Origin: a virus
IMG/VR virus record: IMGVR_UViG_3300049825_000657
Location: 1 to 41,687 of that record
Strand: one strand, 5' to 3'
Length of the DNA stretch: 41,687 bases
In this document: piece by piece, positions 2,491 to 7,405 of the stretch
Layout: each line of letters opens with the position of its first letter
Numbering within the stretch: position 1 is the stretch's first letter
Position numbers and translations under genes: made by a program
The notes under the pieces: generated by a model
The model's database searches: none
Told to the model about the DNA's origin: nothing
What the model saw: only the letters and a program-made list of their open reading frames with translations

Positions 2491-2976
2491 CTACCTGACC
2501 GCGACGCGGTCGCTGGCCAGGCCCCGCGCGATCTGGCGGGCCTCCTGCTCGACAAGCACAATGCTCCGCCCGCCCGGATAGCCGCGCGCCGCCCGCGCCG
2601 CCCAGCGCGTGATCTTGACGTTGTTGGCCCGGTCCCCGCCGAGGTACTTCACGGGCCACCAAATAGCTTCTTCCATCAAGCTAACATCCCGCTCTTTTGG
2701 TGGAAGCAATCGCCGATCTTGATCCTCAGACTGTTCCCTAAGGAAACGCATCTCCACCTCGTCTTGGGATTCCCCCCCGATAGCACTCCGGCGGTGCACA
2801 ATATCGCTGAACTCCACGACGTACTCTGGCCATCCGGACCCATAACCGGAAGGTAAAATTCGAACCGGGATCCGCATGAGGGTTTCGAAGGCGAGGGTCA
2901 TGCGGTGCATCACGTGGTCGCCGGTCCAGACAGCCGGCGGAACGTAGACCGCGGTAGGGTCGTGAAAATCAAGCAT
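2491..2976 (-). CDS. DUF6362-like phage protein
   Basis: 161 residues. The N-terminal half, from HRMTLAFETLMRIPVRI to GYGSGWPEYVVE, resembles phage DUF6362 proteins (helical start, a G-Y-x-S-x-W-P-E motif). A second conserved block SLMEEAIWWPVKYLGGDRA and a terminal ALA-type helix fit the same layout, in which the C-terminus looks like a helix-turn-helix. A DNA-binding role is inferred only. It overlaps the next upstream gene by 8 bases. Confidence 0.55.
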   Translation of the reverse strand: MLDFHDPTAVYVPPAVWTGDHVMHRMTLAFETLMRIPVRILPSGYGSGWPEYVVEFSDIVHRRSAIGGESQDEVEMRFLREQSEDQDRRLLPPKERDVSLMEEAIWWPVKYLGGDRANNVKITRWAARAARGYPGGRSIVLVEQEARQIARGLASDRVAVR

Positions 2977-3157
2977 CGGCGGGCACCGTTGGAAGCCAAC
3001 TTCTAGGAGCTAGCCGAGTCCTACAAGTGCCCATTTTTTCTCCCATCATGGAAATGTGAGTGATTAGCGCCCCGCATTCGGCGCAGACGTAATGGCCAGA
3101 GGTGAGTGGCAAACCTTGTATCCATTCGTGGCCGCTGTAGTTCACAAAATCAAGCAT
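2969..3157 (-). CDS. Small Cys-containing protein (possible zinc ribbon)
   Basis: 62 residues with a CAEC pair at about 25-28 after a His/Tyr-rich stretch and a further Cys downstream, which suggests a half zinc ribbon. No family assigned. Its start overlaps the end of the C5-methyltransferase gene by 8 bases and its stop overlaps the next gene, so it is part of the same operon. Confidence 0.5.
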   Translation of the reverse strand: MLDFVNYSGHEWIQGLPLTSGHYVCAECGALITHISMMGEKMGTCRTRLAPRSWLPTVPADA

Positions 3158-5195
3158 CTTGCACCATTTGAATTCTCCGCCCTATCCAGGACATCACGTT
3201 CACCGCCATGCTGTTGCCGAGTTGCTTGTACCGCGGCCCGTCGGGCACGTTGCCGATCTGCGTAAATCCGTCCGGAAATCCCTGAAGCCGCTCCGCCTCC
3301 AGCGGCGTGATGCGCCGGACGCCGCGCCGGTAGGCCACCGATTGAGTGGTGGCCCGCTCCTCGATCGTATAGGCCGCGCCATCGTCGCGGATGCCGATGC
3401 CGTCCGGCCCATTGTCCGGGTTTTCGCTAACGGCGCGCTCCTGAATGGCGTAGGCCGCCGCGACCTGTCCGCCGCCGTGATCCTTCGACGAAAACGCGAT
3501 GTAACTGCGGCTTGAGCCGCCGGAAGCGGCTCGCATGTTCACCGTGTCGTGAGGGCCTTCGAACTGCGCCCCGCCGTCGCGCCCGCGCATGTCATAGGCG
3601 ACGATGTGCTGGTTGGGATCGGTTGCGGTGTTTAGAGCCCCGGTCACGCCTCCGGTTTCATAGATGCCGTCGTTTCCCGTGGTGCGGTAGCACGTGGTAG
3701 CCAGCGGCGGCCCCCGTCCGGTGCCGTCTTCGCTGGCGTCGAAGCCCTCGCCGCGCAACGCGTGGGAGATGAACGTCTCGCTTTCGAAATCGATGCGGCC
3801 GCTTGGTCCTCCATGAGCGTTGACCGCTGTCGCGACATTGATAGGCCCGGAAGTGTTGTTCCCGCCGAATGCGATCAACCCTCCGTCGCAGTCGAAGTCG
3901 GTTCCAAGTCCGCCACGGCCCGTAGGTCGGCTTGCAATTGTGGGGGCAACGTTTTGCCCCGCTTGACGGCGCGGCGGAGGATGCCCTGACAGGCTTTCGG
4001 CGAGAGATAGAACCTTGGCGAAGTTTCTGACTCTAGTACTTCCGATAAATTCACTTGCTCGTTGGGCTTGTCCGTTGAAATCGTGCCACGATTGAAGCCA
4101 CTCCACGTATGTAAAAAGGTCATTGCTTGCCGATCGCGCATAAGCGATACAATCCTTCAATGCGGTCAAATTCGATGATGCCGCAGCGAAGAAGCTGGGC
4201 TGCGAGGGCTTCAATCGAGCAATGAGCGCGGCGATGGTCAGCACGGCTTTCGAACAAATGAAGGTTTCCGTTTGCGTTATTTCCCTTGTCGAGGTCGATG
4301 TGATGAACGATTTCGCTACTTGTAAGGCTTCGTCCAACTCGCGTCGCCACAACTCTTCGGTGAGTATAAACGGGACTTCCTTTGACAAATCCATCAATGG
4401 GCCGTCCTGCATGTTTTCCGCTGGATATTCGCCACCGTCCAAGGCCGAGTCGCTTTGATCTAGCGACCACTTCGTGACTACTTCTTCCAAGTGTTTTTGC
4501 CACTTCGGCCAAAGGCCGCTTGCCTCGTCCAGCCCGAATAATTTCATCCTCCGCCTCAGTCCATCGTTTGAGAGGCTGGCGCAATCCAAGCTTTCCCGCG
4601 CGGTAGCGAACGGTTTCGACCCGACGAGACAAATGCTGTGCAATATCTCGGTGAGGCATTGCAGAATAGTGAGCGCCGATGAAGGCGTCATCCTCTTGAG
4701 TAAATCGTCTCTGTGCTGCCCGCATACGAAAACCCTCCTTCGCCGTTGTGCCAGCCCAAACCACTGAGCATCCAAAATATCGAAATCAACAATATAGCCC
4801 AATTCCTCTAGACCACAGAGAAATGAGCGCATCGCTCCTGTCTTGTCACTCAATACACCCGGTACATTTTCCCACAATACCCATGCAGGATTGTACCGTT
4901 CGACAATTGCCAAAAACGTGAGAGTAAGGTTGCCACGCGGGTCTGCCATTCCCTTTCGAAGTCCGGCCACGGAGAAGGATTGGCACGGTGTGCCGGCGAC
5001 AAGAACGTCAATTGCATAGTTTGGCCAATCCTTGAACTTTGTCATGTCGCCGTGGTTGGGCACGCCCGGGAAACGATGCTTGAGCAGGGCTGAGCAACGC
5101 TTGTCGATTTCGGAGAAGAAAGCAGGCCGCCAGCCGAGAGGGTGCCACGCGACGGAGGCCGCTTCGATGCCGGAACAGAGCGATCCGTAGATCAT
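3150..5195 (-). CDS. DNA (cytosine-5) methyltransferase with a roughly 230-codon insertion
   Basis: 681 residues in one uninterrupted frame. C5-methyltransferase motifs appear in order: motif I GSLCSGIEAAS (4-14), motif IV GTPCQSFSVAG with catalytic Cys71, motif VI WENVPG (108-113), motif VIII QRRRRVFVCG (150-159), then the C-terminal ITPLEAERLQGFPD and KQLGNSMAVNV (motifs IX-X). It methylates cytosine at C5 in phage or host DNA. Between residues about 160 and 392 the sequence is not methyltransferase-like; there an HNH endonuclease gene (4120-4725) is encoded in a second frame and a small gene (3875-4123) starts in the third. Phage homologues normally need only about 10 residues between QRRRR-VF and the AESLSGHPPPRR segment. 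The start ATG overlaps the upstream stop (ATGA). Whether the 681-residue product folds is unknown. Confidence 0.85.
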   Translation of the reverse strand: MIYGSLCSGIEAASVAWHPLGWRPAFFSEIDKRCSALLKHRFPGVPNHGDMTKFKDWPNYAIDVLVAGTPCQSFSVAGLRKGMADPRGNLTLTFLAIVERYNPAWVLWENVPGVLSDKTGAMRSFLCGLEELGYIVDFDILDAQWFGLAQRRRRVFVCGQHRDDLLKRMTPSSALTILQCLTEILHSICLVGSKPFATARESLDCASLSNDGLRRRMKLFGLDEASGLWPKWQKHLEEVVTKWSLDQSDSALDGGEYPAENMQDGPLMDLSKEVPFILTEELWRRELDEALQVAKSFITSTSTREITQTETFICSKAVLTIAALIARLKPSQPSFFAAASSNLTALKDCIAYARSASNDLFTYVEWLQSWHDFNGQAQRASEFIGSTRVRNFAKVLSLAESLSGHPPPRRQAGQNVAPTIASRPTGRGGLGTDFDCDGGLIAFGGNNTSGPINVATAVNAHGGPSGRIDFESETFISHALRGEGFDASEDGTGRGPPLATTCYRTTGNDGIYETGGVTGALNTATDPNQHIVAYDMRGRDGGAQFEGPHDTVNMRAASGGSSRSYIAFSSKDHGGGQVAAAYAIQERAVSENPDNGPDGIGIRDDGAAYTIEERATTQSVAYRRGVRRITPLEAERLQGFPDGFTQIGNVPDGPRYKQLGNSMAVNVMSWIGRRIQMVQDA
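3875..4123 (-). CDS. Small ORF in the third frame of the methyltransferase gene
   Basis: 82 residues starting at an ATG that overlaps the HNH stop (ATGA). The C-terminal two thirds read NLSEVLE...SPRFYLSPKACQGILRRA...KRGKTLPPQL. I recognise this as a conserved phage peptide family often found inside or next to phage C5-methyltransferase genes (S-L-S-x-x-L-E, then Y-[FY]-L-S-x-K-A-C-x-G-I-L-R-R-A). The same DNA in the methyltransferase frame gives ESLSGHPPPRRQAGQ and onwards, also methyltransferase-like, so the two frames overprint each other. Function unknown; recognition is from memory, not from a search. Confidence 0.55.
   Translation of the reverse strand: MTFLHTWSGFNRGTISTDKPNEQVNLSEVLESETSPRFYLSPKACQGILRRAVKRGKTLPPQLQADLRAVADLEPTSTATEG
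4120..4725 (-). CDS. HNH homing endonuclease nested in the methyltransferase gene
   Basis: 201 residues in a different frame from the surrounding methyltransferase. Two Myb/SANT-like DNA-binding repeats (about 6-48 and 54-95, each starting F/W-T-x-E-D and ending K-L/R-L-G-L) are followed by an HNH nuclease core at 139-168 with HHIDLDKGNN, NGNLHLF and a terminal H...H pair. This is the layout of free-standing phage HNH homing endonucleases. The ATG at 4725 has an excellent ribosome site AAGGAGGG (4733-4740) at 7 bases, which is itself part of the codons for the methyltransferase motif QRRRRVF. The stop overlaps the next start (ATGA at 4123). The segment reads as less GC-rich than its neighbours, which fits transfer. 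Confidence 0.85.
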   Translation of the reverse strand: MRAAQRRFTQEDDAFIGAHYSAMPHRDIAQHLSRRVETVRYRAGKLGLRQPLKRWTEAEDEIIRAGRGKRPLAEVAKTLGRSSHEVVARSKRLGLGRWRISSGKHAGRPIDGFVKGSPVYTHRRVVATRVGRSLTSSEIVHHIDLDKGNNANGNLHLFESRADHRRAHCSIEALAAQLLRCGIIEFDRIEGLYRLCAIGKQ

Positions 5196-6341: not shown

Positions 6342-6586
6342 ATGTCGATCCTATCGGATCCGGAGCCCTCAAGGGTGGAGAGGCGGGCACGGCGGACTAA
6401 AGTTGAAAGCTCTTCATTCACCGGTTCGTCGTCGATTTCGTCCAACATTCGAAATGCCATGTTGACGAATTCTTTCGGAGACATGATCACATGTCCAAAC
6501 ATCTTGCCCGGTTTCTGCTTGCAGGGCTCAATGACAATAGGATCATGCTTCGGCGCGCGCTTTCTAGGTTTCGTTGGTTTGGCCAT
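6338..6586 (-). CDS. Small basic hypothetical protein
   Basis: 82 residues beginning MAKPTKPRKRAPKHD, a Lys/Arg-rich tail, followed by an acidic helical part (FRMLDEIDDEPVNEEL). The ATG at 6586 is preferred over longer in-frame starts because it has an AGAGGAGA ribosome site. Its start lies 23 bases inside the end of the upstream methyltransferase. Function unknown. Confidence 0.6.
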   Translation of the reverse strand: MAKPTKPRKRAPKHDPIVIEPCKQKPGKMFGHVIMSPKEFVNMAFRMLDEIDDEPVNEELSTLVRRARLSTLEGSGSDRIDI

Positions 6587-7295
6587 CTCGGCTCTCCTCT
6601 GTTGAAAGAAAATCAATCTGTTGCGGCGCGGCGAGCCGTTCCGGGGCGGCCACGAAAAAATCAGGCTGCGCATAGGCCTTGCGGATGCGCTCGCACGCGA
6701 TATCGAAGTAGCCTTCGTCGATCTCGATGCCGATGAACTTGCGACCAAGCTTCACGCAGGCGACGCCAGTCGTGCCGCTGCCCATGAATAAATCCACAAC
6801 AGCGCCGACAGTCCAATCGACCACCGCCGACATAAGCATAATCGGCTTTTCAGTGCTGTGAAAATTGTTCCCGGAGCGTGGGCACTCGATCACGTCGGAA
6901 GGCCTTTTCTTCGGGAAAAAATGATTCGGCCCAGGATAAAACAGGGCCACTTCAGTCTGGCGCGCGTGCTCCCGTTCAAGATCGCCCATCGACCAGTTGT
7001 TCTTCACCCACGTTATGAGGGACTTTGGTTTAGTAACTCTGACAATATCATCCCATCTGCAGAAAACATATTTTGAATGCGCCGCCGGAATTTCGGATGC
7101 GAAAATTAGAGGCCAATCGCTGTCGTCATTTACGATTTTCGCATAGGAAGTCTCCCGATGCCCACTTTGAAAAGATATCCCATACGGCGGGTCCGTCACC
7201 AATGCTTCAACCTCGCCCAACGTCGGCAAGATGTCCCGGCAATCGCCCAGGTACAGCGTGCAGTCGCCGATCACTTCCTTGCGCCGGTAAGTCAT
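6564..7295 (-). CDS. Beta-class DNA N6-adenine/N4-cytosine methyltransferase
   Basis: 243 residues. The catalytic DPPYG motif (35-39) precedes the SAM-binding FMGSGTTG motif (170-177), followed by GRKFIGIEID, which is the beta-class order seen in CcrM-like and many phage enzymes. It methylates an amino group on A or C in DNA. I chose the ATG at 7295, which follows a conserved leader peptide frame; a GTG at 7337 would add 14 residues. The first 45 residues are duplicated in a truncated copy at 8258-8431. Confidence 0.85.
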   Translation of the reverse strand: MTYRRKEVIGDCTLYLGDCRDILPTLGEVEALVTDPPYGISFQSGHRETSYAKIVNDDSDWPLIFASEIPAAHSKYVFCRWDDIVRVTKPKSLITWVKNNWSMGDLEREHARQTEVALFYPGPNHFFPKKRPSDVIECPRSGNNFHSTEKPIMLMSAVVDWTVGAVVDLFMGSGTTGVACVKLGRKFIGIEIDEGYFDIACERIRKAYAQPDFFVAAPERLAAPQQIDFLSTEESRDGQTNET

Positions 7296-7310
7296 GGGAT
7301 CAGTCCCAGC

Positions 7311-7333
7311 CCTTCGAGGAAGTACATCTCCCA
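7311..7333 (-). repeat. 23-bp direct repeat, copy A
   Basis: Identical to 8447-8469. In both places it lies immediately upstream of a methyltransferase start and encodes the frame WEMYFLEGL. It marks the best-conserved part of a larger duplicated unit (small membrane gene, small SWHV gene, methyltransferase start). Confidence 0.85.
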
Positions 7334-7405
7334 TCACACGTCACCACAGCCAGGGCCGATAACGTGCCAGTTCCCGATGCTGTCTTGTCGCCAATCGTAG
7401 GTCAT
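7334..7405 (-). CDS. Shortened 23-residue peptide, copy A of a duplicated small gene
   Basis: The ATG at 7405 overlaps the stop of the small membrane gene (ATGA). It encodes an S-I-G-N-W-H-V segment matching S-L-G-S-W-H-V of the 41-residue paralogue at 8428-8553, then stops early. After the stop the same frame continues with WEMYFLEGLGLIP, identical to the end of the paralogue, so this is probably a decayed copy. Function unknown. Confidence 0.45.
   Translation of the reverse strand: MTYDWRQDSIGNWHVIGPGCGDV

Follow-up and report, generated by a model that had tools for sequence, protein, structure and literature searches.

A gene for an HNH endonuclease lies hidden inside a C5-cytosine DNA methyltransferase (MTase) gene of a tailed phage, in a different reading frame, and the MTase frame stays open from one end to the other. 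There is good reason for confidence that this is a hidden HNH homing element situated just after MTase motif VIII, that the open host frame is read through, and that two copies of the motif have split functions. A wider reading has about even chances: that a +1 nested gene is widespread in phage C5-methyltransferases, that the HNH gene invaded this overlap, that three frames are under selection, and that the out-of-frame reading of the HNH gene is a folded MTase domain. The hidden-HNH arrangement is already known from other phages (2025, PMC11855218); the third gene and the evidence of selection on all three frames appear to be new, the nested +1 open reading frame (ORF) being the likeliest novelty.

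The methyltransferase ORF and the inserted gene

The window, that is the whole 41.7 kb stretch of DNA analysed, is an IMG/VR virus record; genes for terminase, sheath, tape measure and recombination mark it as a tailed phage. The following features were located in it:

3150..5195 (-), C5-cytosine DNA methyltransferase ORF, 681 aa, without a stop through the inserted HNH gene
4120..4725 (-), HNH endonuclease, 201 aa from ATG 4725; the ORF itself is open from 4764 and lies in frame +2 with respect to the MTase
4733..4740 (-), Shine-Dalgarno sequence AAGGAGGG of the HNH gene, 7 nt before its ATG; these are arginine codons of MTase motif VIII (RRRRVF)
4026..4715 (-), insert read as part of the MTase, roughly its residues 161-390 (limits approximate), predicted to be mostly helical, with conserved blocks SALTILQCLTEILH and GLRRRMKLFG
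4047..4073 (-), putative second motif VIII, in degenerate form (GQAQRASEF), at the insert's 3′ end, from a by-eye alignment of invaded relatives
3875..4141 (-), third-frame ORF p88, 88 aa, in the MTase +1 frame
4850..5017 (-), what is left of the nested ORF's N-terminal half (MQLTFLSPAHRANPSPW...YRVY and a stop), closed by that stop in the window genome

The MTase ORF matches the Pfam family DNA_methylase (1.8e-54), and its assignment to the C5-cytosine DNA methyltransferases (PF00145) follows from the family score and from the catalytic PCQ and motifs IV, VI, VIII, IX and X, all in one frame. PHROG 116 aligns residues 1-676 to a stretch of 283 columns, with the large insertion as a gap. The intact motif VIII (RRRRVF) occupies 4745-4728, motifs IX and X (RRITPLEAERLQGFP, RYKQLGNS) are intact and in frame downstream of the insert, and the core is modelled by AlphaFold2 as a C5-methyltransferase. 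The 681-residue protein is presumably active as an enzyme. A second DNA methyltransferase gene (N6_N4_Mtase, 6564-7337, minus strand) is found a short way upstream in the same orientation.

The HNH ORF matches HNH_3 (PF13392) at 6.3e-06, and its 26.2 bits pass the curated cut-off of 24.8. The HNH_3 domain is on the C-terminal side of the protein and the N-terminal region is Myb-like; the HNH family profile matches the Myb chain 1h8a_C (0.0037). An earlier note on this DNA had described a 201-codon HNH gene with its own Shine-Dalgarno site, out of frame within a 681-codon MTase ORF, and the ORFs and Pfam matches confirm that description; the insert, which the note had placed at residues 160-392, is nested as proposed, with its limits corrected to roughly 161-390. 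The HNH ATG falls in the Val-Cys codons that follow RRRRVF, and purine-rich arginine codons make up the ribosome site. Among the motif VIII arginine codons, 26 of 34 are AGR in invaded genes, versus 53 of 296 in uninvaded ones. Judged by eye, the motif VIII region looks duplicated in the invaded genes, with the second, degenerate copy downstream of the insert.

Invaded and uninvaded relatives

Used alone as a query, the window HNH protein found no relatives in viral contigs. HNH relatives were retrieved there with a five-sequence HNH alignment, after which more than ten invaded MTase genes were available beside the uninvaded relatives collected from the same source. The same layout is present in IMG/VR contigs, a contig of a Rhodocyclaceae bin and Omegavirus mycobacteriophages, with HNH proteins 43-56% identical, and in every invaded case the host frame is HNH +1. 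The MTase host gene occurs as both invaded and uninvaded alleles; in the comparison with uninvaded C5-methyltransferases that the earlier note had proposed, the insert segment is absent from the uninvaded genes.

The MTase is broken after the insert in the Omegaviruses and in locus L156, so full-length function is not required everywhere. In the Omegavirus phages either motifs IX/X are in a separate ORF after the hidden HNH gene or, as in Thibault, the MTase is frameshifted in its N-terminal part; the frame across the HNH gene is nevertheless open.

Out-of-frame HNH genes are also hidden between MTase motifs IX and X (L184:3285-3932, L198:3234-3749 and L229:3183-3731). In these three loci the host frame is open and motif X is intact downstream, which makes this a second insertion site; a relative of the L198 HNH was sought in plasmids, with none found. 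A third site lies between motifs VI and VII/VIII of a C5-methyltransferase (L175:526-1053). Other HNH genes of the same family run antisense to C5-methyltransferase genes, at or near the MTase C-terminus (L011:5427-5657, L173 and L181). Gordonia phage Neville and phage ctDrO704 were considered as nested cases and rejected, as their genes overlap only at the ends.

Selection on the host frame

An HNH gene is nested in a C5-methyltransferase at 18 loci, and at each of them the host frame is free of stops for the length of the HNH gene, over open stretches of about 143-214 HNH codons. Shuffles of synonymous codons, which keep the HNH protein and the codon usage and do not model phylogeny, predict about 2.3-6.2 stops in these loci, with a probability of zero stops of 0-0.024 each (0.006 for the window). 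As near relatives are among them (L069/L070/L154 and L149/L150/L152), the 18 loci are not 18 independent events. In free-standing HNH controls (n = 60) the corresponding frame has a mean of 13.1 stops per 200 codons, as their own shuffles predict. Three of the 60 had zero stops; inspection showed that these too lie within C5-methyltransferases, in the stretch from motif IX to motif X; together with L175 they mean that the stop test by itself picked up further examples at two other sites.

Constraint on the host frame extends to its amino acids. Across the insert, the window shares 33-46% of its host-frame residues with other invaded genes, against 20-26% under a null that keeps the HNH protein and an open frame, and identity is still 0.431 versus 0.246 when the insert ends are removed. 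In the same test free-standing HNH genes give values close to their null, and the MTase N domain is near the null in most pairs. Host-frame blocks such as SALTIAQCLTEILH are strongly conserved within the insert. The ratio of third- to first-position changes in the HNH gene is about 1.0 in nested genes, versus 1.6 in free-standing HNH genes and about 2 in the MTase N domain. By these alignments, host-frame conservation in the insert exceeds what the HNH protein would impose.

In the AlphaFold2 prediction residues 160-390 are mostly helical, with a pLDDT of about 60-90. The model is built on nine invaded sequences, in which a second overlapping frame may produce signals that look like covariation; on this model the insert probably folds as a helical part of the MTase.

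These results bear on three suppositions made from the window alone. That an open MTase frame is unlikely by chance agrees with the shuffles and with the frame being open across the HNH gene in every relative examined, and the idea that the host frame is under selection to stay readable across the HNH gene is supported by tests on stop codons, codon positions and amino acids, run with several controls. Conservation of residues 160-392 in the MTase frame had been held to count against the nesting; it is partly present among invaded genes, and the nesting stands because the HNH frame is also conserved and uninvaded genes lack the segment.

The third-frame ORF and its uninvaded counterpart

Residues 30-77 of p88 correspond to the C-terminal domain of an ORF nested in the MTase genes of uninvaded phages. 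The p88 start is ATG 4141, and the first 22 nt of p88 lie within the HNH gene; this start (MRDKQ...) is common to relatives and the second Met is not. The proposal that the ATGA at the HNH stop starts the third gene therefore fails, since that coupling is not conserved. The use of all three frames of one strand holds at the level of ORFs, with all three jointly open over only about 22 nt (4141-4120).

The +1-frame segment is found in 116 distinct uninvaded MTase genes, with the consensus SLSDILETGxVPQRFYLSxKACxGILRRAEKRGKELP, and is present in phage P1 dmt (L151, about 2700-3149). In P1 dmt and in loci L002-L148 the nested ORF is unannotated, and its C-terminal helices surpass the MTase residues that they overlap in conservation. 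Across the stretch YFLSARAC..KELP, 52 disjoint pairs show 350 changes at first positions of MTase codons and 113 at third positions (p = 3e-29), and upstream of it the usual order is seen (630 first versus 1334 third). The reversal is also found in the subset retrieved only by a methyltransferase query, and over about 23 codons of uninvaded genes the nested frame is better conserved than the MTase frame. That the nested ORF is a shadow of MTase conservation was considered and rejected, because the codon-position pattern reverses.

In 103 uninvaded genes the upstream part of the nested frame holds 0.05 stops versus 1.14 expected; in invaded genes, where it is split by the HNH gene, stops are at chance level (5.33 versus 5.41 expected). 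A nested ATG is nearby in 98 of the 116 genes, with a Shine-Dalgarno-like site in 81% of these versus 22% at control positions, although conservation of the KFKDW residues may account for such sites. The nested ORF model is confident over the C-terminal helices only, which fits an N-terminal half that is free of amino-acid constraint. Compared with the PDB, the model gave no significant match. Pfam, PHROGs and NCBIfam suggested no function for the ORF; PHROG 16143, labelled DNA methyltransferase, does match it. Both p88 and the nested ORF are expected to be translated, judging from the sequence. In L077, around 3631-4285, a single ORF joins the frame of the MTase N-terminus to the nested one, because of either a genuine frameshift or an error in the sequence. 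A search for a nested +1 ORF in phage methyltransferases returned nothing within the literature searched.

Proposed explanation and alternatives

It is proposed that an HNH gene entered out of frame after motif VIII, in the variable target-recognition region of the MTase, in the phase where the MTase frame is HNH +1, so that the MTase frame would never have been closed. HNH translation would start from the Shine-Dalgarno sequence supplied by the motif VIII arginine codons, and ribosomes coming from the MTase ATG would pass through the element to yield a 681-residue enzyme; the extra residues, about 210-230 in number, would themselves be under selection, probably as a helical insert. The upstream copy of motif VIII would serve the MTase and the degenerate downstream copy the third-frame ORF, itself the putative C-terminal half of the gene nested +1 in uninvaded phage MTases. 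The occurrence of hidden HNH genes among relatives is disjunct, and the element would have spread by homing, via cleavage of uninvaded alleles.

Introns and inteins are frequent homes of HNH genes (PMC3943268), and the HNH gene could by analogy sit inside a self-splicing intron or intein, the open host frame being incidental; this is improbable. Eight loci searched with Rfam gave no intron, in a search that did recover the control group I intron, in the thymidylate synthase gene (td) of phage pVa5, which has 17 host-frame stops across its HNH gene. No group I or II catalytic RNA core was found, and Pfam detects no intein domain in the window MTase or the host ORFs of six relatives. The HNH start and stop also lie at the insert edges and leave little space for a ribozyme, and a spliced insert has no need of an open frame. 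Still less credible is a chance overlap in G+C-rich sequence, with a spurious long frame over a real HNH gene. Many spurious antisense ORFs do occur in the window, but the host frame is equally open in invaded relatives at 36-43% GC, 12-26 stops occur in the other alternative frame, the shuffles and free-standing controls argue against it, and motifs IX and X are intact in frame downstream. As the layout recurs in diverged genomes, chance is excluded in practice.

Two further readings concern what the extra frames do, and each has a minor share of the probability. The larger share, roughly one chance in a few, goes to a host frame kept open merely for the passage of ribosomes, with the extra residues as a functionless tolerated loop. 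Such a loop has been proposed for the ShiLan domain of mycobacteriophage methylases, an insert modelled as a loose hairpin (PMC11855218), and it would suit the invaded lineages with a broken MTase; against it stand amino-acid constraint well beyond openness and confidently predicted helices. Somewhat less likely is that the third-frame segment results from +1 frameshifting of the MTase after motif VIII, with no separate nested gene. The restriction of protein conservation to the C-terminal part and the fusion of the two frames in L077 are in its favour, whereas frameshifting has no need of the stop-free upstream nested frame of uninvaded genes, most nested ORFs have an ATG and a Shine-Dalgarno-like site, and p88 has its own conserved ATG in invaded genes.

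On the preferred reading of a hidden element that is read through, what was a mycobacteriophage curiosity becomes a recurring strategy, in which a homing gene resides inside a coding gene without splicing and leaves the host frame open. It is met at three or more C5-methyltransferase sites, always in the same phase, with quantitative evidence for selection on both the HNH and the host frames.

Comparison with known systems

Hidden HNH insertions have been described in mycobacteriophage methylases as the ShiLan domain (Arsenault, Gosselin, Gogarten 2025, PMC11855218; earlier PMC9957025), with one more in a 2025 genome announcement (PMC12613952). The ShiLan and window cases are alike in having an out-of-frame HNH gene in a methylase, an open host frame that is HNH +1, no intron or intein, and an insert end that resembles flanking host sequence; ShiLan shows the same stop avoidance (probability of zero stops 0.018). 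The ShiLan host is an N6/N4-type methylase, whereas that of the window is a C5 enzyme; the two HNH proteins have only the core region in common and their insertion sites differ. The ShiLan HNH gene starts at a GTG without a ribosome-binding site, that of the window at an ATG with a strong Shine-Dalgarno sequence, and the third-frame gene of the window has no reported ShiLan counterpart.

The Omegavirus methylase and HNH genes (Constella gp104/gp105, Thibault gp103/gp104 and KashFlow gp113) are closer, with a homologous HNH protein (43%), the same site and the same third-frame ORF; there the MTase is broken after the insert and the genes are annotated separately or not at all. In the portions of the literature available, no discussion of these genes as hidden HNH genes was found. 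Phage pVa5 td resembles the window in having an HNH gene inside a host gene, and differs in its group I intron, detected by Rfam, and in a host frame full of stops. Phage P1 Dmt is a C5-methyltransferase with the same nested +1 segment (LSSKACAGILRRGEKRRKSLP) as the window lineage; it differs in being uninvaded, and the nested ORF is unannotated in the P1 record. The nested segment suggests that P1 dmt, a classic phage gene, contains a conserved overlapping gene that laboratory strains would allow to be tested directly.
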